Below are positions 2,773 to 28,951 of a stretch of DNA of 64,000 bases, piece by piece (within the stretch, counting starts at the first letter, position 1; the number at the start of each line of letters is the position of its first letter). The notes below the pieces were generated by a model that was not told the DNA's origin, did no database searches, and worked only from the letters and a program-made list of their open reading frames with translations. Both the position numbers and the translations under genes were made by a program. The stretch is from Pseudomonas sp. S09G 359. GTDB lineage: Bacteria > Pseudomonadota > Gammaproteobacteria > Pseudomonadales > Pseudomonadaceae. The stretch lies in assembly GCF_002843605.1 (NCBI RefSeq), contig NZ_CP025263.1:2509501-2573500 (forward strand), written 5' to 3'.

Positions 2773-3289
2773 CGGCGTGTATATCTGTTATTTGGGTAAC
2801 GGCTAACCCGGCGTCCTGTCGGGTTACCCACGGGTTCAAACCTGCGCGCGGCCAGCGTGTTTGATGGGGCGCCTAAGATCAAAAGCACAGCACGGCGGCC
2901 TGAGAGCCGAGCGGTTTCTCAAGCCGAACTCAGGTCAAAAATGTGCGAGCGGGCTTGCTCGCGAATGCGGTGCATCAGATATACATGTGTTAACTGATAC
3001 ACCGCATTCGCGAGCAAGCCCGCTCCCACTTTTGGAGCTCTACACACCGCCTGGCCGAGGGGCACGAGCCTTTTGGTTGCTTCGGGCTGGGCCGGCATTC
3101 GGGCGTTTCCAAAGTGACCCGCTTTAAGAGCGGAACCCCCTCTAATACCACCCCCCAACCGCAAAAAATGAAGCTTTCATGACAAAAGTTCGGTAGTCCT
3201 TGGCCACTCCCGTCTCTCCTTTGTATCGCGATTGACAACGTCAGCACGGCGTTTTTTTCAACCGCCAGCAGGATGCCAGGAGTGGGGCG
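2773..3289. repeat. Gene-free repeat region with degenerate mosaic repeat
   Basis: No convincing gene lies here. The stretch holds a module with GGCGCCTAAGATCAAAAGC (2868-2886) and a tail module with AAAGTGACCCGCTTTAAGAG (3111-3130). Both modules recur at 13.41-13.67 kb, the first in inverted orientation. A REPIN is nested between them. The arrangement looks like a decayed copy of the structured repeat found after the LysR gene at 13.4 kb. Confidence 0.6.
2943..3030. repeat. REPIN (inverted REP pair)
   Basis: The left arm GAGCGGGCTTGCTCGCGAAT and the right arm ATTCGCGAGCAAGCCCGCTC are exact inverted copies around a short A/T-rich centre. This is the typical Pseudomonas REP doublet of the GCGGGCTTGCTCGC subtype. 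Confidence 0.85.
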
Positions 3290-3892: not shown

Positions 3893-3948
3893 GCAGGCCG
3901 TACGCCGTGCAACCGGCGGCGCATAAAAATACAAGGTCAGGGGGCGGT

Positions 3949-5553: not shown

Positions 5554-7353
5554 ATGCAACGCCTAATCCTGAGCCTGTTGATCTGCCTGGGCTTCGCGCT
5601 CCCGGCCACCGCCCATGCCTGGTGGCAAGACGATTGGCACTACCGCAAGCAGATCTCGGTAGACACCACCGCCCAAGGCGCCGCGATCAGCCAGGCCCTG
5701 GGCCGCACTGCGCTGCTGGTGCGCCTGCACACCGGCAACTTCACCTTTGACGGGGTCAAGGACGACGGCGCCGACCTGCGCTTTGTGAGTGCCGATGACA
5801 AGACCGTGTTCAACCATCAGATCGAAAGCTTCGACCCGCTGATGGGCATGGCGCTGATCTGGGTCGATGTGCCCAAGGTCGAAGGCGGCCAGCGCCAGGA
5901 CCTGTGGATGTACTACGGCAACCAGAAGGCCCCGGCCACAGCCAACGGGCAACTGACATTTGATCCGAACTACACCGCGCTCTACCACTTTGACGGCGCC
6001 AACGGCACGCCGGCCCGGGACACCACGGCCTACGCCAATACCTCGGTTAACGCCAGCGGCGCGAGCATCGATGGCGTGATCGGCCGCGCCTTGCAGTTCG
6101 CCGGCCAGCCGTTGCTGTTGCCGGCCAGCCCGTCGTTGCAACACGCCGCCGGCGGCGCCTTCACCGCCAGCGCCTGGCTGCGCCTGGACCAGGCCAGTGG
6201 TGAGCAAGTGGTGCTGGCCCGCCGCGACGGCCCCCATAGCCTGTTACTGGGCGTGAACCAGGGCATGCCGTTTGTTGACGTCGACGGCCAGCGCGGCGTG
6301 TCGACCCAGCCGCTGAACCCCGGCCAATGGCAGCACCTGGCGTTCACCGCCGAGGGCGAAAAGATCACGCTGTATGTGAACGGCCGCGAAACCGCGACCC
6401 TCGCCGTGGCCCTGCCGGCGTTCAATACGCAACTGGCGGTTGGTGCCGACCTGCCAGACGCTGGTAGCACGCACCTGCCGTTCGCCGGGGCCATCGATGA
6501 GCTGCGCCTGTCCAAGGTGGCACGCCCGGGCGCACTGTTGCTGGCCGATGCCAATGCCCAGGGCGCCGAGTCGAAACTGGTGGCCTACGGGGTGGATGAA
6601 GAACAGTCGGGCTTCGGTTTTGGCAGCCTGGGCTTCCTGCTCAACGCCGTGCCGGTGGACGCCTGGGTGATCATCCTGGTGCTGGTGGCGATGATGTTCC
6701 AGTCGTGGGTCATCATGCTGCGCAAGAACCGCCAAGTCAGCCGTGTGAGCAGTGCCAACGAGATCTTCCGCGAGCACTTTGCACAGATCGGCACGCGCCT
6801 GGAGATGTATGCCGACGACGCCCAGTTGGGCGAACGTCTGCGCCATTCCTCGTTGTGGCGCCTGTACCTGGTGGCGGTCAAGGAGATCCGCACCCGCCGC
6901 GCCCAGGGCGCCGACACCTCGTCGGTCTCGGCCGCCACCATCGAAGCCATCCGTTGCTCCATGGACGGCGTACGCACCCGTGAAAACCAGCAGCTCAGCG
7001 CCAAGCTGTCGACCCTGTCCAACGCCATCGCTGGCGGCCCGTATATCGGCCTGCTCGGTACGGTGCTGGGGATCATGGTGGTGTTCCTCGGCACGGCCAT
7101 GGCCGGTGACGTCAACATCAACGCCATCGCCCCGGGCATGGCGGCGGCCTTGCTGGCCACGGCCATGGGCCTGTTCGTCGCGATCCCCGCGCTGTTTGGC
7201 TACAACCGCCTGATCACGCGCAACAAGGAAGTCAGCGCCGACATGCGCGTGTTCGTCGATGAGTTCATCACCCGCCTGGCGGAGATGCATGGCGAGAGCC
7301 AGCACAGTGAAGCCGCGCACCGCCGCGAGCATCACGCCGCGGTTCCGGCCTGA
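5554..7353 (+). CDS. DUF2341-LamG lectin domain fused to ExbB/MotA proton channel
   Basis: This 599-residue fusion starts with a signal peptide (residues 1-22, ending AHA). A DUF2341 segment (about 40-140; WMYYGNQKAP) and a concanavalin/LamG-like domain (about 145-330) follow and should lie in the periplasm. A membrane helix starts near residue 366 (VDAWVIILVLVAMMFQSWVI). The C-terminal ExbB/TolQ domain (about 400-585) has the GPYIGLLGTVLGIM and MAAALLATAMGLFVAIPA pore helices. ExbB proteins use the proton gradient to energise TonB. Here a glycan-binding-type ectodomain is attached. It is the first of a tight exbB-exbD-tonB set. Confidence 0.88.
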   Translation: MQRLILSLLICLGFALPATAHAWWQDDWHYRKQISVDTTAQGAAISQALGRTALLVRLHTGNFTFDGVKDDGADLRFVSADDKTVFNHQIESFDPLMGMALIWVDVPKVEGGQRQDLWMYYGNQKAPATANGQLTFDPNYTALYHFDGANGTPARDTTAYANTSVNASGASIDGVIGRALQFAGQPLLLPASPSLQHAAGGAFTASAWLRLDQASGEQVVLARRDGPHSLLLGVNQGMPFVDVDGQRGVSTQPLNPGQWQHLAFTAEGEKITLYVNGRETATLAVALPAFNTQLAVGADLPDAGSTHLPFAGAIDELRLSKVARPGALLLADANAQGAESKLVAYGVDEEQSGFGFGSLGFLLNAVPVDAWVIILVLVAMMFQSWVIMLRKNRQVSRVSSANEIFREHFAQIGTRLEMYADDAQLGERLRHSSLWRLYLVAVKEIRTRRAQGADTSSVSAATIEAIRCSMDGVRTRENQQLSAKLSTLSNAIAGGPYIGLLGTVLGIMVVFLGTAMAGDVNINAIAPGMAAALLATAMGLFVAIPALFGYNRLITRNKEVSADMRVFVDEFITRLAEMHGESQHSEAAHRREHHAAVPA

Positions 7354-7364
7354 GGAGAATCACC

Positions 7365-7790
7365 ATGGCTTCCGTAAATGCCTCCCACGACGATGACGAT
7401 GACGCCGCCGTCGACAGTATCAACATCACGCCCCTGGTGGACGTGCTGATGGTGGTGCTGGTGATGTTTATCCTCACCGCCACCGCCCAGGTCTCGGGCA
7501 TCCAGATTCACCTGCCCAAGGCCAGCGCCTCGGTGTCGTTGTCGGAGGCCAAGACCAAGGCGATCTCCGTGAATGACGGCGGCCAGGTGTTCCTCGACGC
7601 CTACCCGGTGACCCTCGGCGAGCTGGAAGAGCGCCTGCGTATCGAGAAAGCGCTGAACCCGGATTTCCCGGTGATCGTGCGCGGCGACGCGATGGTGCAG
7701 TACCAGAAAGTCATCGAAGTGCTCGATTTGCTGCGTCGGCTGGAGCTGTCCCAGGTCGGGCTGGTCACCGGCAAACCGAGCCAGGGCTGA
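7365..7790 (+). CDS. ExbD/TolR family biopolymer transport protein
   Basis: This 141-residue protein has a short acidic N-terminus (DDDDDAAVDSINITPLVDVL), one membrane helix (about 22-45) carrying the conserved Asp of the proton path (PLVDVLMVVLVMF), and a periplasmic ExbD domain. It lies 11 nt after the ExbB fusion and 3 nt before the TonB gene, so the three products should form one energising complex. Confidence 0.93.
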   Translation: MASVNASHDDDDDAAVDSINITPLVDVLMVVLVMFILTATAQVSGIQIHLPKASASVSLSEAKTKAISVNDGGQVFLDAYPVTLGELEERLRIEKALNPDFPVIVRGDAMVQYQKVIEVLDLLRRLELSQVGLVTGKPSQG

Positions 7791-7793
7791 GTC

Positions 7794-8498
7794 ATGACCG
7801 CACAGATCCCGATCGCGCCGTTGCCCGTGAAGAAGAAACCGCCGTTGCGCCCGCTGAAGTGGGGCGCCGGCCTGTTGCTGGGCGCCGTGGCAGCTTGGTT
7901 TTTATGGCAGTGGGCCAATGACATGAGTGGCGTGCGCCGCGAAGCGCCCAAGGTGCCGACGATTATTCCGTTGCCACCGCCGCCGCCACCACCGCCGGAG
8001 AAACCCAAGGAGCCCGAGCCCCAGGTCGAAGAAAAAGTCCCGGAACCGGTGCCCAGCCCCGAGCCCGAAGAGGTCAAGCCAGCCGAGGAAGCACCGCCTT
8101 CGCCTAACGAAGATTTAGCCAACCCGATGCAGATCGACGGCGATGCCCAGTCCGGCAATGACGGTTTCAACATCGGTGCCGGCAAGGGCGGCGGCATGGC
8201 GGGCAGCGGTGGCGGCGGGTTGGGCACCGGTACTTACAAACAGTACCTGGCCGGTACCTACCAACGCCTGATGCGCGAGGACCCGGAACTGCGCAAGAAA
8301 GCGTTTTCGATACAGATAGACCTGTGGTTGGGCGCTGAAGGCGAGGTGACCAAGGCAGTGGTGGCCAAGTCCAGCGGGGATGCCGAGACCGACGCCCAGA
8401 TGCTCGCCCTGGTGCGTGCGCCGCGTGCCACCCAGAAGCCTCCGGCGTCGCTGACGCTGCCCATGCGCCTGTCCCTCAAGGGCCGGCGCCCAGATTGA
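7794..8498 (+). CDS. TonB-like energy transducer
   Basis: This 234-residue protein has a cytoplasmic N-terminus, one membrane helix (about 23-43), a long Pro/Glu-rich spacer (residues about 58-105, including a run of eight prolines), a Gly-rich linker and a shortened TonB C-terminal domain (about 150-230). It follows exbD by 3 nt. It is likely the dedicated partner of the ExbB/ExbD pair and may energise the TpsB or the porin encoded next to it, but no TonB box was identified in either. Confidence 0.88.
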   Translation: MTAQIPIAPLPVKKKPPLRPLKWGAGLLLGAVAAWFLWQWANDMSGVRREAPKVPTIIPLPPPPPPPPEKPKEPEPQVEEKVPEPVPSPEPEEVKPAEEAPPSPNEDLANPMQIDGDAQSGNDGFNIGAGKGGGMAGSGGGGLGTGTYKQYLAGTYQRLMREDPELRKKAFSIQIDLWLGAEGEVTKAVVAKSSGDAETDAQMLALVRAPRATQKPPASLTLPMRLSLKGRRPD

Positions 8499-8553
8499 TC
8501 GTTTGCTGTTCTAACGACTTTTTTCAACGGTTTTTTACAGGAGTTGCGTACAC

Positions 8554-10254
8554 ATGATTTCCCCCGTGAATCGACTGACCCTGGCGGTTGGCATGGTCAT
8601 CGCGACCCTGGTTGGCCAGGCGGCGGCAGCCCCGGTCGCCCCCTCGGAAAACGTCACCATCAACCTGATCCGCCTGTTGGTGCAACAAGGCGTGTTGACC
8701 CAGGACACCGCCAATGGGCTGATTGCCCAGGCCGAAAAAGAAGCCCAGCAGGCGCGGCAGGCCAATGCCGCGCCGGTGGTGGCCGCAGGCCCGACCGCTG
8801 CGCCGGGCGATGTGCGCGTGCAGTACGTGCCGCAAGCGGTGCGCGATCAGATCCGCGACCAGGTCAAAGCCGAAGTCATGGCCACCGCCAAGCAGGAAAA
8901 CTGGGCCCAGCCCAATACCTTTCCGGACTGGATCTCGCGTATCAGCTTTGATGGCGACATCCGCCTGCGCGATGAATCGCGCTACTTTTCGGGCAATAAC
9001 AGCAACAACATCACTGACTTCGCGAAGCTCAATGACACCGGCCCCTACGACGTCAACAAAAACTCCAACACCCGCTTTCCACCCTTGCTCAACACCCGCG
9101 AGGACCGTGAAAACCTGTTCCGCCTGCGCGCACGCCTGGGCATGAAAGCGGTGATTTCACCGGAATGGACCGCCGGCATCCGCATCGCCACCGGCTCCGA
9201 CAACAACCCGGTTTCCACCACCCAGACCCTCGGCGGCGGCTTCGGTAAAAAGGATATCTGGCTGGACCAGGGCTACCTGACCTGGAAAACCACGGATGAC
9301 ATGACCTTGACCGCCGGGCGCATCGGCAATCCGTTCTACTCCACCGACATGATGTACTCCAACGACCTCAACTTCGACGGCGTGGCGGCGATCTTCAACC
9401 ACAGCCTCAATAGCGAATGGGGCCTGTTCGGGACGCTCGGCGCGTTCCCGGTCGAATACACCTCCGACACCGCCAGTTCCAACGGTATCGACAAGGAAGA
9501 CAGTCAAACCAAATGGCTGTTCGGCGGGCAAATCGGTGCCGACTGGAAGATCAATCGGGCTAACCGCCTCAAGCTTGCCGCTGCCTACTACCAGTTCCAG
9601 GATATCGAAGGCGAACGCTCCAGCCCTTGCTCGCCGTGGGCCGGAGCCGCGGGTTGCGATACCGACGGCACGCGTGTGGCCTTTATGCAAAAAGGCAACA
9701 CGGTGTTCAATTTGCGCAACAACACCACCAACCCGGCCACCCCAGCCACCACGCCGGACCCGCAATTCGTCGGCCTGGCCTCCAAGTTCAACGTGCTGGA
9801 CCTCAACCTGGTCTGGGACAGCGAACTGCCCAGCGACTTCAAGCTGCGCAGCCAGGGCAACTTCATCCACAACCTGGCCTACGACAAGAACGAGATGCTC
9901 AAGCGCAGCGAGGGCGAGATCGTCAACAACATCAACAGCAAGGGCCAGTTTGAAAGTGGCGGCAATGCCTTGATGGTCTCCTTCACCCTCGGCAGCGCGC
10001 TGGAGATGCGCAAGCGCGGCGACTGGAACGTGCTGGCCGGCTACAAGTACATCCAGCCCGACGCCTTGCCCGACGGTTTCAACGACTCCTCATTTCACCT
10101 CGGCGGCACCAACGCCAAGGGTTACTTCATTGGCGGCAACTACGGCATCGACAAGAACATCTACGCCAGTGCGCGCTGGTTGAGCGCGTCCGAAGTGTAT
10201 GGCGCGCCGTTCGAAGTGGATGTGATGCAACTGGAACTCAACACGCGCTTTTAA
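8554..10254 (+). CDS. Putative outer-membrane porin
   Basis: This 566-residue protein has a signal peptide (cleavage near residue 26, AAA-AP), a helical N-terminal section (LIRLLVQQGVLTQDTANGLI, then Gln/Glu/Ala-rich to about 75) and a beta-barrel-type body starting at about 125 (ISFDGDIRLRDESRYF). It ends in an outer-membrane-type NTRF. It fits the putative-porin family found at the same place in the P. aeruginosa Pdt region. AGGAG precedes the ATG. Substrate unknown. Confidence 0.82.
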   Translation: MISPVNRLTLAVGMVIATLVGQAAAAPVAPSENVTINLIRLLVQQGVLTQDTANGLIAQAEKEAQQARQANAAPVVAAGPTAAPGDVRVQYVPQAVRDQIRDQVKAEVMATAKQENWAQPNTFPDWISRISFDGDIRLRDESRYFSGNNSNNITDFAKLNDTGPYDVNKNSNTRFPPLLNTREDRENLFRLRARLGMKAVISPEWTAGIRIATGSDNNPVSTTQTLGGGFGKKDIWLDQGYLTWKTTDDMTLTAGRIGNPFYSTDMMYSNDLNFDGVAAIFNHSLNSEWGLFGTLGAFPVEYTSDTASSNGIDKEDSQTKWLFGGQIGADWKINRANRLKLAAAYYQFQDIEGERSSPCSPWAGAAGCDTDGTRVAFMQKGNTVFNLRNNTTNPATPATTPDPQFVGLASKFNVLDLNLVWDSELPSDFKLRSQGNFIHNLAYDKNEMLKRSEGEIVNNINSKGQFESGGNALMVSFTLGSALEMRKRGDWNVLAGYKYIQPDALPDGFNDSSFHLGGTNAKGYFIGGNYGIDKNIYASARWLSASEVYGAPFEVDVMQLELNTRF

Positions 10255-10272
10255 TGCGCAGGGAGATGCCAC

Positions 10273-10899
10273 ATGAACACGCGAATCTGCGGGCTGCTGT
10301 TGCTGTTCGTCGCCACAGCGGCGTCGGCCGAAGGCATGGAGGAACGCTTGCGTACGCAATTGCGCAGCACCACCCAGCAATTGCAGGCGCTGCAAAGCGA
10401 GCAGGCCCAGGCCAGCGCGGCGCGTATCGCCGCCGAAACCCAGGCCAAACAGGCTCAGGCACAAATCAAGCAACTGACCGCCGAGCTGGAGAAAACCCGT
10501 GGCGTGGCCGAGCAAATGGCCGGCCAGCAGCAGAGTTTGCACAACCAGGCGCAAGCGCAGGTGGCGGCGAGCAACGAGCAGATCGGTAAGTTCAAGAAGG
10601 CCTATGACGAACTGCTGGTGCTGGCCAAGGGCAAGGAAGCCGAGCGCGGCCGCTTGCAGGCACAACTGAGCGAACGTGACACACAAGTGCAGCAATGTTC
10701 AGTCAAGAATCAACAGATGTACGGCGTGGCCCAGCAATTGCTCGCGGCCTACGAAAAGATCGATGTGGCCGAGGTGATGAGTATTCGCCAGCCCTTCGCC
10801 AGCGGCGCGCGGGTCAAGTTCGAGGAACTGGCCCAGGGCTTTGGCGACGATCTGTACAAGAGCCGTTTCGATGCGCCCCAGGCGGGCGTCAATCATTGA
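10273..10899 (+). CDS. Periplasmic coiled-coil protein of the Pdt-like locus
   Basis: This 208-residue protein has a signal peptide (ending ASA near residue 18) and a long Gln/Ala/Glu coiled coil (about 25-155) that contains a single Cys near residue 140. The C-terminal part (AYEKIDVAEVMSIRQPFASG) is not coiled. I recall similar DNA-repair-ATPase-like annotations for this position in Pseudomonas, which reflect only the coiled coil. It is preceded closely by the porin gene and followed by the YbjN gene. A scaffold or tether in the envelope is a reasonable guess. Confidence 0.75.
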   Translation: MNTRICGLLLLFVATAASAEGMEERLRTQLRSTTQQLQALQSEQAQASAARIAAETQAKQAQAQIKQLTAELEKTRGVAEQMAGQQQSLHNQAQAQVAASNEQIGKFKKAYDELLVLAKGKEAERGRLQAQLSERDTQVQQCSVKNQQMYGVAQQLLAAYEKIDVAEVMSIRQPFASGARVKFEELAQGFGDDLYKSRFDAPQAGVNH

Positions 10900-10918
10900 T
10901 CACAAGGAAGAACCGCAC

Positions 10919-11392
10919 ATGAACGAATTGATCATCAACGTGACCACCCAGAGCCTCACCGACCTGCTGCAAGAGGCCGGTTATCGCGTGAACCAGACCG
11001 AGCAGAACGGTATCGTGCAGTTGCTCAGCGCCAGCCAGGGCATCGGCTTTGCCGTGCGCTTCGGCAACCCGGCGGCAGAGCAGGGCAGTTATGTGGATTT
11101 CACCTACAGCTGTGCGCTGCGCATTCAAGGGGAGCTGCCCGAGGGCCTGGCCCAGGTATGGAACGCCTCGCGACGGTTCGCGCGGCTGTCGGTGCAGGGT
11201 GAATTCCTGTTGATGGAAATGGACGTGGTGGTGGCCGGTGTTGGCGCACTGCACTTGCGCAGTCAGTTGGAATTGTGGGACCGCCTGCTGCAGGAGTTTA
11301 TTGTCTACCTGCGTGAATACAGCCAGCAGGCAGCGCAGTTGCAGGCCCAGGCCGAGGCGGTGGCCACTGACGCAGAGGCACCTGTCCTGTGA
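10919..11392 (+). CDS. YbjN domain protein
   Basis: This 157-residue protein matches the YbjN fold seen in secretion-chaperone-like proteins: an N-terminal helix and strand (SLTDLLQEAGYRVNQTEQNG), a central RFARLSVQGEFLLMEMDVVV strand-helix unit and a C-terminal helix. The open frame extends 26 codons upstream, but the ATG at 10919 was chosen because AAGGAAG lies 8 nt before it. The stop overlaps the GTG start of the PpiC gene. Its place in the envelope operon suggests a chaperone or regulatory role. Confidence 0.78.
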   Translation: MNELIINVTTQSLTDLLQEAGYRVNQTEQNGIVQLLSASQGIGFAVRFGNPAAEQGSYVDFTYSCALRIQGELPEGLAQVWNASRRFARLSVQGEFLLMEMDVVVAGVGALHLRSQLELWDRLLQEFIVYLREYSQQAAQLQAQAEAVATDAEAPVL

Positions 11393-12330
11393 AGAAGCCA
11401 ACCCTGATGGTCGGCGCGGGTGCGCTGGCCTTGCTGGTGGTGGCGGTGGGGTTGAGCGTACGCCCAGGCAGCGACCCGGTGGCCGCGCAACAACCGGCGC
11501 CGGCGCTCAGCCCTGCACCGAGCGGGCCGGCGGTGGCACGCCTGGGCAACCAGCAAATCGACCTGCCGGAGCTGAAAACCGTACTCGCCAGCCTGCCGGC
11601 CGAGTCCCGCGAGCAATTACGCGGTAACCGTGGCGCGCTGGAAACCTGGCTGCGCTCACGCTTGGCGCAAAAGGCCGTGCTCGAACAGGCTGACGCCCAG
11701 GGCTGGCGCCAACGCCCCGAGGTGGAACAGCAGACCCGCGCCGCCACCGAACAGATCGTGTTTCGCGACTACATGCTGTCGGTCAGCCAGGTGCCGGCCG
11801 ATTACCCCAGTGCCGCCGAACTGCAACAGGCTTATGACAGCGGCAAGGCGCAATGGGTAACGCCGCCGATGTACCGGGTGAGTCAGATTTTCCTCGCGGT
11901 GAATGACCCACAAAGCGCCGACGCCGTGCGCCGCCAGGCCCAGGAACTGAGCCGCCGTGCCCAGGCGGCGCCGGGTGATTTTGCCGCCTTGGCGACGCAA
12001 TATTCCCAGGACCCGGACACCGCCGCGCGCGGTGGCGATTCGGGCATGCAGCCGTTGCAGCAACTGGTGCCGCAGGTGCGCGAGGCGGTGTCGAAGCTCA
12101 AGGTCGGTGCCGTATCGGACGTGGTGCAGAGCGGGGCGGGCTTCCATGTGCTCAAGCTCACCGGCCAGCAACCGGCGCGTACCGCGAGCCTCGACGAATT
12201 GCGCGAACGCCTGACCCAGGCCCTGCGCGTCCAGCGCCAGGAGCAGATTGCCAAGGCCTATCTGGAAGGCATGCTCAACACCGCGACGTTGAGCATCGAC
12301 GGTGCCGAGTTGAACAAAGTGCTGGAGTAA
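11389..12330 (+). CDS. PpiC-type peptidyl-prolyl cis-trans isomerase (parvulin)
   Basis: This 313-residue protein begins with a GTG that overlaps the previous stop as GTGA. It has an N-terminal membrane anchor or signal (residues 5-22), a SurA-like helical chaperone region (about 50-150) and a parvulin domain (about 165-265) with YRVSQIFLAV, DPDTAARGGDSG and GAGFHVLKLTG motifs. It should assist folding of exported proteins in the periplasm. The genes of this locus (barrel proteins TpsB and porin) are plausible clients. Confidence 0.88.
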   Translation: MKKPTLMVGAGALALLVVAVGLSVRPGSDPVAAQQPAPALSPAPSGPAVARLGNQQIDLPELKTVLASLPAESREQLRGNRGALETWLRSRLAQKAVLEQADAQGWRQRPEVEQQTRAATEQIVFRDYMLSVSQVPADYPSAAELQQAYDSGKAQWVTPPMYRVSQIFLAVNDPQSADAVRRQAQELSRRAQAAPGDFAALATQYSQDPDTAARGGDSGMQPLQQLVPQVREAVSKLKVGAVSDVVQSGAGFHVLKLTGQQPARTASLDELRERLTQALRVQRQEQIAKAYLEGMLNTATLSIDGAELNKVLE

Positions 12331-12381
12331 CACGCGCCAACCCGCATTGGATGCATCGACCGACAAGACAGGGAGTCTCAC

Positions 12382-13359
12382 ATGGCATTACTGGAACCGT
12401 CCGGCCAACCAGGGCCTTCGGCCTATCGCGCACCCGCCGAGTCGCGCAGCAGCTGGTTGGCGCTGGCCAACGAGATCGACCCGGAGGTGGCACGTTATTT
12501 CCTGGTGAGCGCGCGTTGCGGCTGTTTCATGCAGGCGGCGCGCAGCCTGAATATCAAGGCGACCCTGCTGCGCAAGCGCCTGGCGCAGCTTGAGGAACAG
12601 GTGCGGCATGCGTTGTTCTGCTACCAGGGCAACGGCCTGGTGCTCAGCCGCGACGGCCAGCAATTACAGGCTCAGTTGGTTGCCCTGGCCCACGCGCGGC
12701 GCTTGCCGGTGGTAGAGCAGCCGCTGATCCGCCTGGCGGTCGCCGAGCCGATCCTGCATGACATCCTCGGTCGCGACCTGATTGCCTTGCTGCGGCGCAA
12801 CGCCAGCGTGCGCCTGGAGATCATCTCCCTCGACAGCCACCTGTCGCTGCAGGCGGTGGACGTGGATGTGGTGCTATGGCTGGCGGACGGCGACAGCCCG
12901 GTGCCTGGCCCGAGCTTTGCCACCAAACCGCCCCGGGCTCTCGCGCGCCTGCAGTATCTGCCGCATATCGCCAAGCGTTACTCACGACTGACCACGCGGC
13001 CGGACAGCGTGGAGGATTTGACCGACTACATGCTGGTGCAATGGCAGCCGGATGCGCAGGTGGATGCATTGCAGCCTTGGAACCAGGTGGTGCAACAGCG
13101 GCTGGCGGCGGTGGTGCAGGTGCAGGCGTATTCGCTGATGCTGGAGATGATCCGCTGCGGCGCCTGCATCGGGTTGCTGCCGCATTACATGAGTAGCTTT
13201 GACCGGGGGTTGGTGGCGTTGCCGGGGTTACTGGGTGAGAGCATGCAGCGTCGGGTTTGGTTGGCGGTGAATGCGCAGATAAAGGATGCGGAGGCGGTGC
13301 AGGGGGTTGTGGAGTTGATTGTGGGGACGTTTGAGGGGCGGCGGGAGTGGTTTGATTGA
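12382..13359 (+). CDS. LysR family regulator closing the Pdt-like locus
   Basis: This 325-residue protein has an N-terminal LysR HTH (residues about 35-95: ARYFLVSARCGCFMQAARSL, then RKRLAQLEEQV) and an effector-binding domain. GGGAG precedes the ATG at 12382. It lies in the same direction 51 nt after ppiC, in the position of a LysR gene in the P. aeruginosa PA0690-PA0701 block. LysR proteins usually control adjacent genes. No T-N11-A site was assigned. Confidence 0.85.
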   Translation: MALLEPSGQPGPSAYRAPAESRSSWLALANEIDPEVARYFLVSARCGCFMQAARSLNIKATLLRKRLAQLEEQVRHALFCYQGNGLVLSRDGQQLQAQLVALAHARRLPVVEQPLIRLAVAEPILHDILGRDLIALLRRNASVRLEIISLDSHLSLQAVDVDVVLWLADGDSPVPGPSFATKPPRALARLQYLPHIAKRYSRLTTRPDSVEDLTDYMLVQWQPDAQVDALQPWNQVVQQRLAAVVQVQAYSLMLEMIRCGACIGLLPHYMSSFDRGLVALPGLLGESMQRRVWLAVNAQIKDAEAVQGVVELIVGTFEGRREWFD

Positions 13360-18405: not shown

Positions 18406-18616
18406 TGCGAACTCCAGGATCTTTAAAGCCAATCAACAGGAGCGTATTAGAGCGCTTTTTACATTTCGATAATTGTGTTTTTGCAGCGTCTGACCGTTTG
18501 CCTTCACGCCGGAAGTACGTACAAACAATTTCCCAGGGCCCGTGGGTGGCAGCTCATCCGTTTTATCTACTAGTTTTTATGCTCTTGAGTTTATATTCCA
18601 TAGGTGGCATATTTTC

Positions 18617-18982
18617 ATGGGCTGGGAAATTGAATACACGGATGAATTCGGCGCCTGGTGGGAGCAACTGGGAATCAAGGAACAGGTGTCGGTATCTGCC
18701 AGCGTGGATCTGCTGGGGCTTTTCGGGCCGGGCCTGGGCTTTCCCCACAGCAGCGACATCAAGGGCTCCCGGCACGGCAACTTGCGGGAGCTGCGCATAC
18801 AGCATGCGGGGCGACCTTACCGGGTGCTCTACGCCTTTGATCCAAGACGATGCGCGTTATTGCTGATCGGCGCAGATAAAACCGGGCAACACCGATGGTA
18901 TGAGGCGTACATCCCAATGGCAGAAAAGTTATACGACGTACATTTGGAAATATTGCGTAAAGAGGGCCGTAACCATGGCTAA
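18617..18982 (+). CDS. higB: HigB-type (RelE/Gp49) toxin
   Basis: This 121-residue protein matches the Gp49/HigB family: WEIEYTDEFGAWWEQL at the start, then FPHSSDIKGSRHGNLRELRI and YRVLYAFDPRRCALLLIGAD. These toxins cleave mRNA at the ribosome. The toxin gene precedes the antitoxin, as is usual for higBA. The frame opens further upstream, but the ATG at 18617 follows AGGTGG and fits the family N-terminus. The last 8 nt overlap higA. Confidence 0.88.
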   Translation: MGWEIEYTDEFGAWWEQLGIKEQVSVSASVDLLGLFGPGLGFPHSSDIKGSRHGNLRELRIQHAGRPYRVLYAFDPRRCALLLIGADKTGQHRWYEAYIPMAEKLYDVHLEILRKEGRNHG

Positions 18983-19280
18983 GAAATTCGCTGAGCTTCA
19001 AGCCCGCATGACACCGCAGGCACGTGAAGACGCCAAGCAACTGTTCGAGCAACACCTGAAGGAAATGCCGCTGCATGAGCTGCGCAAGGCTCGGCAGTTG
19101 AGCCAGGAGAGTCTGGCCAAGCGCTTGAATATCAACCAGGCCGCCGTCTCGAAGATGGAACGGCGCACCGACATGTACATCAGCACGTTGCGCGATTACA
19201 TCCGCGCAATGGGCGGCGAGCTGGAAATTATTGCGACGTTTCCCGACGGTCAGGTAAGGATCGATAACTTTGCCTGTTGA
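18975..19280 (+). CDS. higA: HigA-type antitoxin, XRE family
   Basis: This 101-residue protein has an XRE helix-turn-helix (about 40-92: LRKARQLSQESLAKRLNINQ, then AVSKMERRTDM). HigA binds HigB and represses the operon. The ATG at 18975 lies inside the end of higB, which couples the two genes. GAGGG lies upstream of the start. Confidence 0.88.
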   Translation: MAKKFAELQARMTPQAREDAKQLFEQHLKEMPLHELRKARQLSQESLAKRLNINQAAVSKMERRTDMYISTLRDYIRAMGGELEIIATFPDGQVRIDNFAC

Positions 19281-19419: not shown

Positions 19420-20322
19420 TTATTTTTCCGCCTGCATCACGGCCGGGCGCCCGGCAGGCACCAGATTCGCCGGCTTGCGATACAGCCCCACCGCCAACCC
19501 GGCGATGATGATCCCGATCGAGATCAGGTTTGGCGTGGAAATACGCTCGCCGATTATCAGCATCGAACTGGTGATGCCAAACACCGGAATCAATAGCGAC
19601 AGCGGCGCAACGGTCGACACCGGGTACAGCTTGAGCAGCGAGTTCCAGCCCCAGTAGGCGAAGTGCGTGGCCAAGTACACCTGGAACAGGATGGACAGGA
19701 TCGCCGTCAGGTCGAGGCTGGCTTGCAGGCCTTCGAACGCGGCGCTGCCATGCATCAGCCAGGCCGTGAGAAACAGCGGGATGGGTGGGATCAGGCTGGC
19801 CCACACCATGAATGAGAAGATCTCCTTGACCCCGGATTTCTTGATGATCACGTTACCCACGCTCCACGCCACCGCGCTGAGGACGATCAACATGACCCCC
19901 AGCACCGCATGGTTGCCTTCCTGGGTGGAAATGATGCCCGCCAGGCCGATCAGGGCCATGACGGCGCCGATCATCTGTGCCCCGCGGATTTTTTCCTTGA
20001 ACAGCACAAAACCCCAACCCATGGTGAAGAACACACTGAGTTGGATGATCAATGAAGCGATCCCCGGGCTCACGCCCACCTGGATGCCGTAGTTGATCAC
20101 GCCCCACATGCCCAGCCCGAAGATGAAGCCGTAGGCGGCCACGTAGCTGAATTTCACCGCCGGGCGTTTGATGAAGAACACCAGCGGCAAGGCGGCGAGG
20201 GCGAAGCGGATGCCGGTGAGCACAAACGGGTCGATCGCGCGCAGGCCCAGTTTGGTGATGGGGAAATTCACCCCCCACACCAGGGTGACGAGTACGGCGA
20301 GCGACAAATGTTTTTTCAGCAT
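19420..20322 (-). CDS. EamA/DMT family exporter
   Basis: This 300-residue protein has ten predicted membrane helices in two EamA repeats (WGVNFPITKLGLRA near residue 16, a second repeat from about 145). EamA proteins export amino-acid-like metabolites. The strong AAGGAGGG site precedes the ATG. It is the last gene of a four-gene minus-strand operon, 53 nt after asnB. It is therefore a good candidate to export the product of the crotonase/AurF/AsnB set. Confidence 0.87.
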   Translation of the reverse strand: MLKKHLSLAVLVTLVWGVNFPITKLGLRAIDPFVLTGIRFALAALPLVFFIKRPAVKFSYVAAYGFIFGLGMWGVINYGIQVGVSPGIASLIIQLSVFFTMGWGFVLFKEKIRGAQMIGAVMALIGLAGIISTQEGNHAVLGVMLIVLSAVAWSVGNVIIKKSGVKEIFSFMVWASLIPPIPLFLTAWLMHGSAAFEGLQASLDLTAILSILFQVYLATHFAYWGWNSLLKLYPVSTVAPLSLLIPVFGITSSMLIIGERISTPNLISIGIIIAGLAVGLYRKPANLVPAGRPAVMQAEK

Positions 20323-20375
20323 GGACCCTCCTTGGGTCTAGCGGCGCACCGCAGGAGCGATGCGCCGCATACAGG

Positions 20376-22280
20376 TCAGTTCAAGGCGAACCGTTTTTGC
20401 ATCAGGCACAGCCCGGCAATTTCCATCAGCAGGTTGTCGGCCGACGCGCGCTGGGCAGGAGACAGGCTTGGCAGGGTGGCCAGCAAGGCGCGCACTTTAC
20501 GCGAATCGAAGAACGGCACATTACTCAAGGCCGGGCCGCTCAACACGTCGTTGACCATTTCAAACAGCTTTGACTGCGGGCTTTCGGACGCCGGCGGCGC
20601 GCGGAAGTACTGCTTCTTGCGATCCAGCACGGCCTGGGGCACATACGGGCGCATGGCTTCGCGCAGGGCGTATTTTTCGGTAGCACCACGCACTTTCATG
20701 TTGACCGGCAGGCGGCAGGCAGCTTCGATCACCTGGTGGTCCAGCAGAGGCGGGCGGCCTTCAAGGCTGCCGGCCATTTCCATGCGGTCGCCCAGGGAGG
20801 TGAGGACCACATTGGGCAGGCTGGACTTGGCCACCATGTACAGCGAGCGGTTCACCGGCTCCCAGTTGTTGAGCGCGCGCGGGCTGAGGCGGTCGTAGAA
20901 CTGGCGGTAGGCATCCACATCACAGAAGCGTTCACGGAAGTCGTCGGTGTACAACTGCGCCAGGGGGCCGAACAGCGCCGACTGGGTTTGCAGCCAGGAC
21001 ACGCCGTGGCCCAGTTCATCCTGAACCCACTGCACGTCATTCTTGGCGCCAGGCAGGTAGCGGTCTGCGCTGGCGTGCAGGCGGCGGCTGAGTTCGGCGA
21101 TCACCGCCGGGTCCTGGTGTTCGTGGTTGTACAGCACCATATCGCGGCGGTAATGCGGGTAGCCGCCGAAGACTTCGTCAGCGCCTTCACCGGTCAGCAC
21201 AGCGCGCATGCCCTGGTTCTGCACGTATTTGCACAGCAAGTACTTGGCCACGCTGTGGGCGTTGGCGAACGGCATCTCGGCGTGCCACAACGCATTTTCG
21301 AAATTGTCCGCCATGTCGGAGGAATTTACCGACAACACATTGAGGTGTGCGCGGTTATGACGGGCGGCGATCTCGGCGTATTGGCGTTCGTCGTAGGCCT
21401 GTTCGCCTTCAAACGACAAGTGAAACGCCTGCAACGGCTGGCCGGTCAGTTCGGTGGCAATCCCCAGCATCGCCGAGGAATCCAGGCCGCCGCTCAGGCA
21501 CACACCCACTGGTACATCGGCATGCAGGCGCAGGCGCACGGATTCTTCGATGGTGTTGCGCAGGGAGTCGATCATTTCGGCTTCGCTGCGCTGCTCGGTG
21601 GCTTTGGCGTCGGGGAACTCCCAGTCCCAATACTGCTCGGTCTGCAGGCCGCTTTCGTCGGCGATGATCCAGCAACCCGGCTTGACGCTGCGGATGTTGT
21701 TGAACACCGTACGGTCGCGCAGGATAAAGCCACGGCTGGCGTAGGCTTCGTGGTCCCACTGCGCCGGTACGCCGGCCGCCAGCAGGGCCTTGATTTCGGA
21801 AGCGAAGTACCAGGCGCCTTCATGTTCGGTGTAATACAGCGGCTTGACACCCACTCGGTCGCGCACGGCAAACAGCTTTTTGCGCAGGCGGTCGAAAATC
21901 AGGATGGTGAATTCGCCGCGCAGTTGCTTGAGCCCACGTACGCCGTGGCGGCGGTACAGGTGCATGGCGATTTCGCTGTCGGAGGAGGTCTTGAAGCGGC
22001 AACCGTAACCTTCAAGCTCTGCGCGAATGCGTTGATAGTCATAGAACTCGCCGTTGACCATCATGACCAGGTCGCCTTCGTCGGCGACGATAGGCTGGGT
22101 GCCATTACCCAGCCCGACCAGGCCCAGGCGCACATAGCCGAACGCTGCCTGGCCCTTGGGGTCGAACCACTGGCTGGAGCTGTCGGGGCCGCGATGATGG
22201 ATCGCGCGCAGGGCGGCATCGAACATGTTCGGGTTGAACGTACGAGGTTGTTTGGCAAACACGCCAATGTATCCACACAT
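20376..22280 (-). CDS. asnB: Glutamine-hydrolysing asparagine synthetase-type amidotransferase
   Basis: This 634-residue protein starts at the ATG giving MCGYIGVF, so that Cys2 is the glutaminase nucleophile. Two upstream codons in frame are ignored for that reason. The N-terminal class II glutaminase (NGEFYDYQ, SSDSEIAMHLY) is followed by an ATP-pyrophosphatase domain with SGGLDSS near residue 263. AsnB enzymes amidate Asp or, in secondary pathways, other carboxylates. It is embedded between an AurF-like oxygenase (45 nt gap) and an EamA exporter, which suggests a pathway-specific amidation rather than housekeeping asparagine synthesis. Confidence 0.9.
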   Translation of the reverse strand: MCGYIGVFAKQPRTFNPNMFDAALRAIHHRGPDSSSQWFDPKGQAAFGYVRLGLVGLGNGTQPIVADEGDLVMMVNGEFYDYQRIRAELEGYGCRFKTSSDSEIAMHLYRRHGVRGLKQLRGEFTILIFDRLRKKLFAVRDRVGVKPLYYTEHEGAWYFASEIKALLAAGVPAQWDHEAYASRGFILRDRTVFNNIRSVKPGCWIIADESGLQTEQYWDWEFPDAKATEQRSEAEMIDSLRNTIEESVRLRLHADVPVGVCLSGGLDSSAMLGIATELTGQPLQAFHLSFEGEQAYDERQYAEIAARHNRAHLNVLSVNSSDMADNFENALWHAEMPFANAHSVAKYLLCKYVQNQGMRAVLTGEGADEVFGGYPHYRRDMVLYNHEHQDPAVIAELSRRLHASADRYLPGAKNDVQWVQDELGHGVSWLQTQSALFGPLAQLYTDDFRERFCDVDAYRQFYDRLSPRALNNWEPVNRSLYMVAKSSLPNVVLTSLGDRMEMAGSLEGRPPLLDHQVIEAACRLPVNMKVRGATEKYALREAMRPYVPQAVLDRKKQYFRAPPASESPQSKLFEMVNDVLSGPALSNVPFFDSRKVRALLATLPSLSPAQRASADNLLMEIAGLCLMQKRFALN

Positions 22281-22325
22281 AAACATTACTCTATTGAATT
22301 TGTATTGGTCAGCGGCACGCTGGGT

Positions 22326-23321
22326 TCAAACGGTGATCGCCGGCTCTGGCGTCACAGGCAGCTCAGGCAGCACCGAGGCGGGATGTATGCCAATTGAGCT
22401 GAGGATCTCGGGCATGGCCGAGTAATCCGCTTCGCCGGTCTCGATAAATTGAGTGGGCAACAGCAGCGAGCGGTCGCCGAACACTTCGAGCAGTTGCGGC
22501 AGGATGATTCGCCACGCGGAAATTTCGCGCATCGGGAACACGCGGATCGAGTTGGCGATGCCACGGGTAAACAAGGCGGTTTGCTCTGGGGTGAAGTCGC
22601 CGACCACCTGCTGCACGAACAACGGGAAGATGTGCTTGTGCACCAGCTCGTCTTTTTTGTGCAGGGCCACCACGTGACGAAACACCGGCTGGATCTCCGG
22701 TGCGTCGCTGAGGTCGGCCAGGTAGTCGCTGATGAACGTCTCCGACACCAGCGAGAAGGCCAGGCGGTAAATCTTGAAATCCGCCTCGGACAGGGTGGCC
22801 TGGGCCTGGCTCAGGTGGCGGGTCAGTTCCAGCTCCGGCCATTTGATGCGGATGCCACGCTGGGTGATCGCCAGTTCGCACATGTTGATCGAGAACAGCG
22901 TGTGGTAGGCCTCATCCGCCAGGGTTTCGGAAATCGTCGCGGCGCTGGCCGAACTCAGGCGCGAGCCCAGTTGCAGCAGGTCCAGGCACGACGGGCAGAT
23001 GATTTCGGTTTCGATGGCGATGGTTTTCTGGTTGTAGATCACCCAGCCGGCCGACAGGATCAGCAACTTCAGGGCGTGGGGGTAATTCTGGTAATGCGGG
23101 TCATGGGCGAAGGGCAGCAGGGCTTCGAGAAAGTCCGGCGCCTGCAGGTCAAGCTGGATATCCGGGCGCTGGGAGTCGAGCTTGATCTGTGCGCGTTTGT
23201 GCCAGCTGCGTTCGATTTTGATCAGTCGTTCATCGGCTGCGTCATTGCTGCGATAAAGATCGTCTTGAGTGCTGTGCTGAAACATGGTTTCACCGGGTTG
23301 ATAGTGAGTTGTGAAGGCCAT
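22326..23321 (-). CDS. AurF-like di-iron N-oxygenase
   Basis: This protein (331 residues from the first ATG; 319 if the ATG at 23285, which has the better upstream GGTGA, is used) has the complete AurF ligand pattern with matching spacing: E104 (or E106), E137-xx-H140 (LADEAYH), E194 (VSETF) and H221-xxx-E225-xx-H228 (HKKDELVH). AurF-type enzymes oxidise amino groups to hydroxylamine, nitroso or nitro groups. A CPSC motif follows the first ligand. The gene lies in an operon with a crotonase, asnB and an exporter. The substrate is unknown. Confidence 0.85.
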   Translation of the reverse strand: MAFTTHYQPGETMFQHSTQDDLYRSNDAADERLIKIERSWHKRAQIKLDSQRPDIQLDLQAPDFLEALLPFAHDPHYQNYPHALKLLILSAGWVIYNQKTIAIETEIICPSCLDLLQLGSRLSSASAATISETLADEAYHTLFSINMCELAITQRGIRIKWPELELTRHLSQAQATLSEADFKIYRLAFSLVSETFISDYLADLSDAPEIQPVFRHVVALHKKDELVHKHIFPLFVQQVVGDFTPEQTALFTRGIANSIRVFPMREISAWRIILPQLLEVFGDRSLLLPTQFIETGEADYSAMPEILSSIGIHPASVLPELPVTPEPAITV

Positions 23322-23365
23322 CCATGGTTTGCCGAGGCACGCTCGGCAACGTTCACGACCGGGAG

Positions 23366-24154
23366 TTACACCGCCTCTGGCGCGGTTTGGATCTTGTCTT
23401 TCTTGCGATCCAGGAAGTCCGCCAGGCGATCCTGTGTGCGGACGTCGGAGGACACCACCGCAGCAATCAGGGCTTCTGTCATCAGGCCGTCCTGTTGGCT
23501 CTGATCCACAATGCGCGGCAATACGTGGGTGACCGCGTAATTGGTCATGGGCAGGTTGCCCGCGATCTTGTGGGCCAATTCGGTGGCCTTGAGCACTGCC
23601 TGGCCGACCGGCACCAGGTATTGGGCCACGCCACGCTCGTAGCTTTCTTTGGCGTAGAGCGTGCGGCCGGTGAGCATCATGTCGGTCATCAGGGCGATGC
23701 CGGCGATACGCGGGAAGCGCACCGAGGCGCCTACCCCCACATACAGGCCGCGCATGGCTTCGGGCAGCGAGAAGAAGGCGCTGTCATCGACCACGCGCAG
23801 GCTGCAGGCCGTGGCGATTTCCAGGCCGCCACCGATGGCCGCACCGGTAATGGCGGCTACCACGGGTACTTTGCCGAACTGGATCAGTTCGAACGTCTTG
23901 TGCCATTCGCGAAAGGCCTGCACGTTGTCGATCACCGATTGGTCGCGGATTTCCGACAGGTCCAACCCCGTACAAAAATGCTGGCTGGTGCTGTAGAGCA
24001 CGGCGGCACCAATGCCTTCAGGCAGGTTGCTGAAGGTGTCGCGCAGTTCGTGCATGACTTCGAGCGACATGGCGTTGCGCTTCTGCGGGCGGTTGAGCCC
24101 TACCATCAATACAGCGCCGTCTACCCGTACGTCCAAGTAGTTTTTGACCGTCAT
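23366..24154 (-). CDS. Enoyl-CoA hydratase/isomerase (crotonase) family protein
   Basis: This 262-residue protein has both crotonase glutamates: one in IGGGLEIATA and one in SLPEAMRGL. The oxyanion-hole segment HFCTGLDL is also present. It should bind a CoA thioester and catalyse hydration or isomerisation. The ATG at 24154 (MTVKNYLDV) was preferred over a frame opening 14 codons earlier because it fits the family and follows GAAGGG. It is the first gene of the minus-strand operon and divergent from an AraC regulator. Confidence 0.88.
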   Translation of the reverse strand: MTVKNYLDVRVDGAVLMVGLNRPQKRNAMSLEVMHELRDTFSNLPEGIGAAVLYSTSQHFCTGLDLSEIRDQSVIDNVQAFREWHKTFELIQFGKVPVVAAITGAAIGGGLEIATACSLRVVDDSAFFSLPEAMRGLYVGVGASVRFPRIAGIALMTDMMLTGRTLYAKESYERGVAQYLVPVGQAVLKATELAHKIAGNLPMTNYAVTHVLPRIVDQSQQDGLMTEALIAAVVSSDVRTQDRLADFLDRKKDKIQTAPEAV

Positions 24155-24261
24155 TGTCCGAATATCCCTTCGAAATGAACCCAACTTGGGGAGCAACGAT
24201 TCTAGGTGGGGAACTTTTGGCCTGCTTGCTATGTCAGGTCATAGTTTGACAAAATCGGGCC

Positions 24262-25059
24262 ATGCCACCGACCTTCACCTTTTCGCCCTATGAACCCGAC
24301 AGCCCTGAAGCGGTGGTGACGCTGCGCGAGTACGCCTCTGGTACGGTATTTCCACGCCACACGCACCGCCGTGGGCAGTTCGCCTATGCCTCCACCGGCG
24401 CGTTGAAGATGTTCACCGACCTGGGCAACTGGGTGGTGCCGCCGCAACGGGCGATCTGGGTGCCGGGCGGGGTGTCGCATGAGATGCACATGCGCGGCGA
24501 TGTGGTGATGCTCAACACCTACCTGGACGACGATGCCGCCCAGCGCGCAGGGTTGCAGAACCATTGCCAGGTGTTTGGCGTATCGCCGCTGCTGCGCCAC
24601 CTGCTGGAGGCAGCGCTGGCGATCGGGCCATCCGCTTCGCCCAGCGTGCGCGACCGTTGCGTGCTGACCTTGCTGATTGACGAAATCGGCAACATGCCCG
24701 AGTTGCCCCTCAGTGCGCCATTGCCCTCCGAGTCGCGCCTGGCCCGTTCTTGCCAGCGCTTTCTGGAAGCGCCCACGCAGAAAATCTCCATCGGCGAAAT
24801 GGCCGACTGGTCGAGCATGAGCCGGCGAACCTTTACGCGAAATTTTCGTGAGTGCACCGGCATGACGTTTGTGTCTTGGCGCCAGCAGGTTTGCCTGCTG
24901 GAGGCAACGGCGCGGCTGAGCCACGGTTCATCCATCACCGATGTGGCGCTCGAGTTGGGTTTCAGCAGTTCCAGTGCGTTTACTTCGGTGTTCCGCCGTA
25001 ACCTGGGGGATTCGCCGGCGCGGTACCTGGCCAAGTCCAAGGCCGCATCGATGTTCTGA
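24262..25059 (+). CDS. AraC family regulator of the crotonase-AurF-AsnB operon
   Basis: This 265-residue protein has a cupin-like N-terminal domain (HTHRRGQFAYASTGALKMFT, VPPQRAIWVPGGVSHEM) and a C-terminal double HTH (about 165-262: ISIGEMADWSSMSRRTFTRN, then DVALELGFSSSSAFTSVFRR). It is divergent from the four-gene operon, with a 107-nt gap holding the small inverted repeat CTATG-TCAGGT-CATAG at 24229-24244. Control of the operon is inferred from this layout. Confidence 0.88.
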   Translation: MPPTFTFSPYEPDSPEAVVTLREYASGTVFPRHTHRRGQFAYASTGALKMFTDLGNWVVPPQRAIWVPGGVSHEMHMRGDVVMLNTYLDDDAAQRAGLQNHCQVFGVSPLLRHLLEAALAIGPSASPSVRDRCVLTLLIDEIGNMPELPLSAPLPSESRLARSCQRFLEAPTQKISIGEMADWSSMSRRTFTRNFRECTGMTFVSWRQQVCLLEATARLSHGSSITDVALELGFSSSSAFTSVFRRNLGDSPARYLAKSKAASMF

Positions 25060-28093: not shown

Positions 28094-28471
28094 CTAAACG
28101 AGGATCGCCAAGGATGTGTACTGGGCGACCTGTGGATCAGCGGTCAATAACTTCATCGGTTCGCTCATGGCTGTCGCAACAATGAGCCTGTCGAAAGGAT
28201 CTTTGTGATGGTGCTCAAGGTCCTTTACCGCTATAGCATGTTCTGAGGTGATGGGCAGTTCGACAAATCCGCTATCCAGGCAGCATTCACGGATTTCCTC
28301 CAGGTCGACCGTAAGTTTTCCCAGGCCGACCTTGATTGCCATCTCCCAAAATGTGGCAGCGCTGATGTAAATTTCCGCTGCACTCTCAATCAGCTTTTTG
28401 GCTTTATTGGATAACTTGGGGTCATCAGTCAGTACCCATAGCAGGATATGGGTATCCAACAGCACTCTCAT
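28094..28471 (-). CDS. PIN-domain toxin (VapC-like)
   Basis: This 125-residue protein has the PIN acidic residues: LLDTHILLW at the N-terminus, AATFWEMAIKVGLGKL in the middle and DPFDRLIVATAM toward the end. PIN toxins are RNases. The start overlaps the antitoxin stop as ATGA. The partner is a Phd-type antitoxin rather than VapB. Confidence 0.9.
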   Translation of the reverse strand: MRVLLDTHILLWVLTDDPKLSNKAKKLIESAAEIYISAATFWEMAIKVGLGKLTVDLEEIRECCLDSGFVELPITSEHAIAVKDLEHHHKDPFDRLIVATAMSEPMKLLTADPQVAQYTSLAILV

Positions 28472-28707
28472 GAAGAACTGCCTTCGAAGGCAGCCAATAT
28501 ATCGTCAGGTAAGGCGGCGTCAAAGTCTTCAGGGATGACGAGCTTCCCTTTCATTGCGCCAATTCGTCGACCTTTGGATTTGCCCACGGGTACAAGCTGC
28601 GCCATCGCACGTCCATGCTTGGCGATGGTGATGATTTTGCCGCTGGCGGCTTCATCGACCAGTTTGGACAAGTTATTTTTCGCTTCACCCAAAGGTACGG
28701 TAATCAT
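28468..28707 (-). CDS. Phd/YefM-type antitoxin
   Basis: This 79-residue protein has the Phd fold (ITVPLGEAKNNLSKLVDEAA, then ITIAKHGRAMAQLVP). The ATG at 28707 was chosen because it matches the family start. The same frame is open for 63 more codons upstream, including an ATG at 28827 with a good GGAG site, but a probable operator lies between the two. The short tail should bind the PIN toxin. Confidence 0.87.
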   Translation of the reverse strand: MITVPLGEAKNNLSKLVDEAASGKIITIAKHGRAMAQLVPVGKSKGRRIGAMKGKLVIPEDFDAALPDDILAAFEGSSS

Positions 28708-28721
28708 GTGGCGTTCCCCAT

Positions 28722-28745
28722 ATTTTGGCCAAATATAGCCAAAAT
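28722..28745. promoter_or_regulatory. Operator/promoter of the Phd-PIN pair
   Basis: The exact inverted repeat ATTTTGGC-N8-GCCAAAAT lies 15 nt upstream of the antitoxin start. Its centre on the minus strand reads TATATT, a good -10 element. Binding of the antitoxin here would block RNA polymerase, which is the usual autoregulation. Confidence 0.6.
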
Positions 28746-28951
28746 TAAGAGAGCTATCAAAGTTCGTCCGACAGTTGGCTGAAGCAGTTCGTCCAGCGGG
28801 GGATTTTTTGTAGTAGATGACTTCCATGGCATATCTCCAAAAAGAGTTAGCCGGAGTTTGCGCCAGACGTCCTTGTCTAGAAATACTGGCCCGCAAAATC
28901 AGAGCAAACCTACTTTTCCAGGTAGGAAATTTTCTCTATAGCTCTGGCCAC

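Follow-up and report, generated by a model that had tools for sequence, protein, structure and literature searches.

Hydroxamic acids are metal-binding compounds and inhibitors of metalloenzymes. Earlier studies describe AurF-like and AsnB-like enzymes working as pairs in routes to such compounds. In the available part of PMC5719088, the actinonin and matlystatin clusters pair the AurF-like ActI and MatA with the AsnB-like ActJ and MatC for a proposed carboxylate-to-amide-to-hydroxamate conversion on an acyl-coenzyme A (CoA)-derived skeleton, the authors favoring amidation and then oxygenation of the amide; these genes sit in nonribosomal peptide synthetase (NRPS)/polyketide synthase (PKS) thiotemplate clusters with a crotonyl-CoA carboxylase-reductase and a mutase. 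The trichostatin proteins TsnB7, TsnB6, and TsnB9 are described in the same text, and the accessible sections of PMC13418202 report that SaAmOx-AS, SaAmOx, and SaHAT form benzohydroxamic acid from free benzoic acid, the genes of the AurF-like amidooxygenase and the AsnB-like hydroxyamidotransferase standing together in this trichostatin/benzohydroxamate cassette. Here, we describe a five-gene locus of Pseudomonas sp. S09G 359 in which an AurF-like and an AsnB-like gene also stand together. It lies at positions 19420-25059 of the window, i.e., the whole analyzed stretch of 64,000 nucleotides (2,509,501-2,573,500 of one 6.77-Mb contig), and consists of four minus-strand genes and one divergent plus-strand gene, all carrying the domains named in the original prediction, a note made from the letters of this DNA. 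Its features are as follows:

24262..25059, plus strand: AraC-family regulator with a cupin-type sensor domain (PF12833, PF00165, PF02311)
24218..24261, minus strand: operator-like element of 44 bp abutting the AraC start codon, a predicted binding site (pattern match across loci)
23366..24154, minus strand (open reading frame (ORF) open to 24196): DmdD-like crotonase, 262 amino acids (PF00378; NF006013)
22326..23285, minus strand (ORF open to 23321): AurF-fold diiron N-oxygenase, 319 amino acids (PF11583)
20376..22280, minus strand (ORF open to 22286): AsnB-like glutamine amidotransferase, 634 amino acids (PF13537 and PF00733; TIGR01536)
19420..20322, minus strand: predicted EamA/DMT-family exporter, 300 amino acids (PF00892)

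Comparison with relatives indicates ATG codons at 24154, 23285, and 22280 as the likelier starts of the crotonase, oxygenase, and AsnB genes. The gap between the AraC and crotonase genes is then 107 nt, followed by gaps of 80, 45, and 53 nt, inside the figures given when the four minus-strand genes were first described as closely packed. Compared with the actinonin and matlystatin clusters, the present unit has a DmdD-like crotonase, an EamA exporter, and an AraC regulator, and it holds no assembly-line gene, in agreement with the earlier statement that neither NRPS nor PKS is involved. Compared with the trichostatin/benzohydroxamate cassette, a TsnB6-type accessory-subunit gene is missing from the operon, the part of the genome in which it was sought, and the AsnB is distantly similar. 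The Dnf (Dirammox) cluster of Alcaligenes likewise joins an AurF-family diiron enzyme to a glutamine-handling amidotransferase (available parts of PMC11160463, PMC11440038, and PMC9136411), but it has a class-I glutamine amidotransferase (GATase), DnfC, and a 2Fe-2S protein, DnfB, whereas the present operon has neither and carries the class-II AsnB-like enzyme instead; in the accessible text of PMC11440038, DnfA did not bind glutamine, and its oxidation of glutamine is disputed. According to the portion of PMC10616846 at hand, the lipothrenin enzyme LitN is an AurF-like diiron N-oxygenase proposed to oxidize an amide directly, as the present oxygenase may do, but its substrate is the amide of a threonine-fatty acid conjugate, its partner is LitO (DUF4873), and the remaining pathway genes differ. 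DmdD, a methylthioacryloyl-CoA hydratase/hydrolase, belongs to the same subfamily as the present crotonase and has both catalytic glutamates (available part of PMC3660561), while the operon holds no gene of the dimethylsulfoniopropionate pathway in which DmdD is set. We found no description of the five-gene set in the open-licence PMC literature, judged by titles and abstract openings.

Used as a query against named genomes, the oxygenase returned 10 loci (P. aylmerensis, three records labelled P. viridiflava, P. canadensis, P. nabeulensis, P. simiae, P. marginalis, P. lini, and P. reactans). All ten carry all five genes in identical order; hence, the block is a genuine unit rather than a product of chance, which bears out the earlier view of a compact pathway whose genes are conserved together and whose regulator is divergent. 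Nine of the ten share the AraC-side neighbors DUF726 and Nramp. The P. lini copy, 78-88% identical, sits at another chromosomal place; an amidase gene separates it from a phage-integrase fragment ~3 kb away. The ratio of non-synonymous to synonymous substitution rates (dN/dS) was 0.00-0.10 in all 50 gene-by-locus comparisons (five genes, 10 loci), which places every gene under purifying selection, and the aligned stretches are free of stop codons; for AraC, the ratio was 0.02-0.09. In the 16 fetched relatives as well as the 10 named loci, the AraC gene is transcribed away from the operon or from EamA; it is truncated in one of the fetched loci, L124. The 44-bp element was matched at 34-43 of its 44 bases in all 27 loci, whereas the second-best site of each locus reached 22-25, and 23 columns are invariant, the pattern having been derived from the same loci that were scanned. 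With up to three mismatches allowed, the 34-bp core has a single match in the whole home genome, beside the AraC start; this predicted site indirectly supports the original description of the AraC regulator as dedicated.

Among 298 genus genomes, which sample a larger group evenly and to which the frequencies given here apply, 62 contain an exporter match at 1e-95; 23 of these, the home genome included, match at 78-100% identity and the remainder at no more than 59%. Seven of the 23 have the whole unit, one (locus L127) is without a working oxygenase only, and fifteen have EamA and the divergent AraC with no enzyme between them. This outlasting of the enzymes by AraC and EamA at the locus is newly seen here and was missed by the original prediction. 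A close oxygenase is absent genome-wide from the 15 two-gene genomes, and an AsnB of this kind, searched at 1e-100, is absent from 14, while three positive-control genomes were matched; the fifteenth, G102, has a different operon, described below. Remnants of the 3' end of asnB are present at four of the 15 two-gene loci, L076, L119, L123, and L124, with scores of 90, 40, 52, and 54 against 31, 33, 27, and 25 for the best of 200 shuffles, L119 being the weakest. In L076, the enzyme DNA is gone from the crotonase start to the last asnB codons, and the stretch between the same neighbors in L077, a close relative, contains neither AraC nor EamA. A tree of flanking genes mixes full and two-gene species; many of its forks are weak, and the gross interleaving alone was used. 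In the AraC and EamA tree, L076 and L119 fall among the full loci (weak forks), and L123/L124 join the full locus of P. lini (100% bootstrap). The remnants and these placements make at least three separate enzyme losses likely, in L076, in L119, and in L123/L124; the other two-gene loci may reflect either loss or an ancestral two-gene module. For 12 of the 15 two-gene loci, EamA and AraC were compared in 13 pairs (L120, L130, and L133 left out; EamA only for L124; two pairs against the full P. lini locus); dN/dS was 0.08-0.26, which is purifying selection, laxer than in the full loci. Where the enzymes were lost, continued selection on exporter and regulator suggests protection against a bioactive product.

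The oxygenase scores 102.4 bits against PF11583, whose gathering cut-off is 29.6, placing it in the AurF family. Its seven iron ligands (E92, E125, H128, E182, H209, E213, and H216 in the 319-residue numbering) are invariant in 36 aligned sequences including the query; the full AurF ligand spacing claimed for it is therefore present, with AurF's own ligand list serving as reference. The ligands align with those of AurF and CmlI, and the predicted structural model resembles both enzymes in fold; neither of the two outcomes that the original prediction had named as refuting it, a lack of co-conservation and misaligned oxygenase ligands, thus came about. In a tree of the kind the original prediction had proposed, drawn without the TsnB7, ActI, LitN, and DnfA sequences, the oxygenase is separated from AurF, CmlI, and two pab-linked enzymes (split support 88/89) and falls on the side holding two amidotransferase-linked relatives. 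One of these, L053, has GATase, rubredoxin, and reductase genes in its neighborhood by Pfam, with serine hydroxymethyltransferase- and aminotransferase-like ORFs recognized by eye. No crotonase or AsnB of the present type lies within the 16-18 kb fetched around the oxygenase relatives L053, L054, and L055. The oxygenase is its own sole match in the home genome. AurF-like matches at 1e-20 occur in 48 of the 298 genus genomes, seven at 94-100% identity (own genome included) and 41 at no more than 30%; at 1e-40, the oxygenase profile matches two of 369 class genomes and three of 398 phylum genomes, the own genome counted in each and the other three matches being L053, L054, and L055. Among the remote genes, that of L013 lies beside TauD-like and aminotransferase-like ORFs, and those of L008, L009, and L019 adjoin GATase-, MOSC-, or ferredoxin-reductase-like ORFs, all judged by eye.

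The crotonase passes NF006013 with 324 bits against a cut-off of 232. Its nearest solved structures are 3hin and DmdD (4izb/4izc), and E112 and E132 line up with Glu121 and Glu141 of DmdD, so that both catalytic glutamates are present as first stated. Sixteen further crotonase matches exist in the home genome, none above 36% identity. The AsnB-like protein, correctly recognized earlier as a class II glutamine amidotransferase (PF13537 and PF00733 were both found), starts MCGYIG; the start at 22280 leaves the cysteine as N-terminal nucleophile. Cys2, R51, NGE76-78, D101, and SGGLDSS are intact, and Cys2 is invariant in 24 aligned sequences. Crotonase and AsnB-like proteins are also paired as CarA/CarB, and the CarA-type beta-lactam synthetase has lost the N-terminal catalytic cysteine; a beta-lactam synthetase or carbapenem-like reading was dropped because the glutaminase cysteine is retained here and the CarA match reaches only 42 bits. 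The last gene product belongs to the EamA family (PF00892), and this membership is what suggests the metabolite export originally assigned to it; it does not reach the cut-off of the O-acetylserine/cysteine exporter NF008523 (186 vs. 472 bits).

The same AsnB subfamily occurs in a second operon (L139, positions 6040-12708) of the Pseudomonas genome G102, which keeps its AraC-EamA pair at another place. The genes of this operon are all on the same strand, in the order HMG-CoA-synthase-like, crotonase, AsnB, flavin adenine dinucleotide (FAD) monooxygenase, acyl-CoA dehydrogenase, and thioesterase; its AsnB is 57% and its crotonase 24% identical to those of the present unit. Methylobacterium nodulans (L058, positions 37-4665) has AsnB (52%), FAD monooxygenase, acyl-CoA dehydrogenase, and thioesterase in the same order, and on a Streptomyces plasmid a remote run of asnB, inositol-phosphatase, and diiron-oxygenase genes adjoins a major facilitator superfamily (MFS) gene. 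An AsnB of the present kind beside CoA-ester enzymes and an oxygenase is thus a recurring theme. Crotonase-AsnB pairs also occur in Chromobacterium/Paraburkholderia; in searches aimed at their surroundings, AsnB matched the own genome only among 369 class genomes (1e-180) and nothing among 200 genomes of the family of genome G841 (1e-150), a set holding no known-positive genome, which gives this negative little weight; none of the plasmid relatives exceeds 60% identity.

Taken as a genuine small biosynthetic unit under selection, the locus probably makes, exports, and senses a small nitrogen-oxidized molecule, perhaps a hydroxamic acid; we infer the chemistry, the order of steps, the export, the regulation, and the immunity as follows. 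The DmdD-like crotonase would hydrate and/or hydrolyze an enoyl-CoA to a free carboxylic acid. With adenosine triphosphate and glutamine, the AsnB-like enzyme, whose intact motifs support this reaction class, would turn the presumed acid into a primary amide, and the diiron oxygenase would hydroxylate the amide nitrogen to give a hydroxamic acid, a step suggested by its phylogeny and by the published AurF-like/AsnB-like pairs. EamA would export the product, and AraC, bound at the 44-bp element, would sense the compound or a precursor and control exporter and enzymes. The exporter may also serve self-protection, since related species without the enzymes keep exporter and regulator. By analogy with the published pairs, a hydroxamic acid is the most economical prediction, and it sharpens the plausible earlier proposal of an N-oxidized and amidated product. 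Among the best 120 of 1217 AsnB matches and the best 120 of 3189 crotonase matches, seven contig sizes are shared (19,618; 104,761; 457,389; 77,485; 8,240; 484,183; and 7,242), equal size being a proxy for linkage; of the seven, only 19,618 recurs among the 36 oxygenase matches, and 4,403 is common to crotonase and oxygenase. In L127, of genome G145, the oxygenase gene has lost ~710 bp internally, while dN/dS against P. lini is 0.02 for the crotonase and 0.05 for AsnB. This retention and the shared contigs suggest that crotonase and AsnB can function without the oxygenase, which favors the amide first and N-oxidation second. We give this order, amidation followed by amide N-oxidation to a hydroxamate, close to an even chance.

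Several points weigh against this reading. Amine, amide, and hydroxylamine oxidation cannot be told apart by sequence similarity, the split between the oxygenase and the arylamine oxygenases was drawn as open, and many tree rows are long-branched. L127 may have lost its oxygenase too recently to inform on the step order, the shared contigs are the proxy described above, and a protein search can miss oxygenases sharing few words. DmdD, in the available part of PMC3660561, hydrolyzes only certain CoA esters. The operon lacks a CoA ligase that might provide the acyl-CoA and a reductase or ferredoxin that might supply electrons. A NAHSxAK-type motif of AsnB, considered as a sign of an unusual acceptor, was dropped because it is common to the subfamily down to 44% identity, and the FAD monooxygenase of the L139 operon may do entirely different chemistry. 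The same product class could also be reached in the trichostatin manner, the oxygenase forming glutamate gamma-hydroxamate by hydroxylating glutamine at its side-chain amide and the AsnB-like enzyme, as a hydroxyamidotransferase, moving the hydroxylamine onto the acid. The best solved relative of AsnB, 7ylz, is indeed named a hydroxyamidotransferase, and SaHAT, a TsnB9 homologue, uses free benzoic acid and not benzoyl-CoA in the available part of its description, which would suit an acid-freeing crotonase. However, the 7ylz match covers parts of the protein and scores no more than 175 bits (the canonical AsnB 1ct9 reaches 142), the published cassette has the accessory-subunit gene TsnB6 as a third gene where this operon has no gene to spare, and AsnB is under selection in L127 without an oxygenase; we consider this route unlikely. 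We think still less of an AurF/CmlI-like conversion of a primary amine into a nitro, nitroso, or hydroxylamine group, with AsnB amidating a separate carboxylate. Fold and ligands agree with those of the arylamine oxygenases, but the tree sets the enzyme apart from them and from the pab-linked enzymes, aromatic-amine genes are absent from the operon, and the 4-aminobenzoate N-oxygenase cut-off NF045603 is far from reached (63.6 vs. 620 bits).

That the genes form an ordinary catabolic or amino-acid operon, with the crotonase in acyl-CoA breakdown, AsnB as asparagine synthase, and EamA as amino-acid exporter, would agree with the AsnB score against TIGR01536 (419.2 vs. a cut-off of 267.1 bits), itself a further point against the amidation-first reading, and with the NF006013 score of the crotonase. 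A diiron N-oxygenase has no role in such an operon, though, and the rarity (7 of 298 genus genomes), the repeated loss, and the single-copy element better suit specialized metabolism, which makes it very improbable. The history of the locus is a question apart from the chemistry. Exporter and regulator may be an older, independent module, since 11 of the 15 two-gene loci carry no asnB remnant; AraC and EamA would then be an efflux module for a common metabolite into which the three enzymes were inserted later, the two-gene state being mostly ancestral. In the AraC and EamA tree, most of the loci without remnants cluster separately on longer branches, and the element is common to all 27 loci. 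Against this, the four loci with remnants are losses at least, given the placement of L076, L119, and L123/L124 beside full loci. We regard an old efflux module as a serious possibility, somewhat short of an even chance.

Other features were seen around the locus. Just past the exporter, at 18542-19280 of the window, lies a pair resembling a Gp49-like, HigB-type toxin and a helix-turn-helix antitoxin; it is kept, partial, or missing among relatives, and L031, L034, L035, and L040 have ~1.4 kb of additional DNA ahead of it. Near the Nramp gene, at 28094-28896, are two kinds of small gene, PIN-like and antitoxin-like, judged by eye to be VapBC-type; several relatives have similar ORFs. The KefB, DUF726, and Nramp neighbors in L032, L033, and L034, labelled P. 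viridiflava, are 93-99% identical to those of the window, and the labels may be wrong. Past the exporter in two further loci (L129, 10311-18986; L132, 10761-18983), very long, repeat-rich frames of 2891 and 2740 amino acids, autotransporter-like by eye, reach nearly to the end of the fetched stretch.

The unit could be a minimal, NRPS/PKS-free path from an enoyl-CoA-derived acid to an exported hydroxamic acid for competition between pseudomonads. Species that dropped the enzymes would repeatedly have kept the AraC receptor, EamA, and the operator so as to sense the compound and pump it out, a resistance-and-eavesdropping module that survives a lost weapon; this wider picture we hold to be doubtful. 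The AurF-like/AsnB-like pairs cited above are from actinomycetes, and the present unit, if the hydroxamate reading is true, would be a five-gene, genetically tractable pseudomonad version. Every intermediate state is held by related species (the whole unit, a broken oxygenase, enzyme loss with remnants, and exporter and regulator only), which makes them a natural series for studying how immunity to a lost product, or its sensing, may be retained in non-producers.

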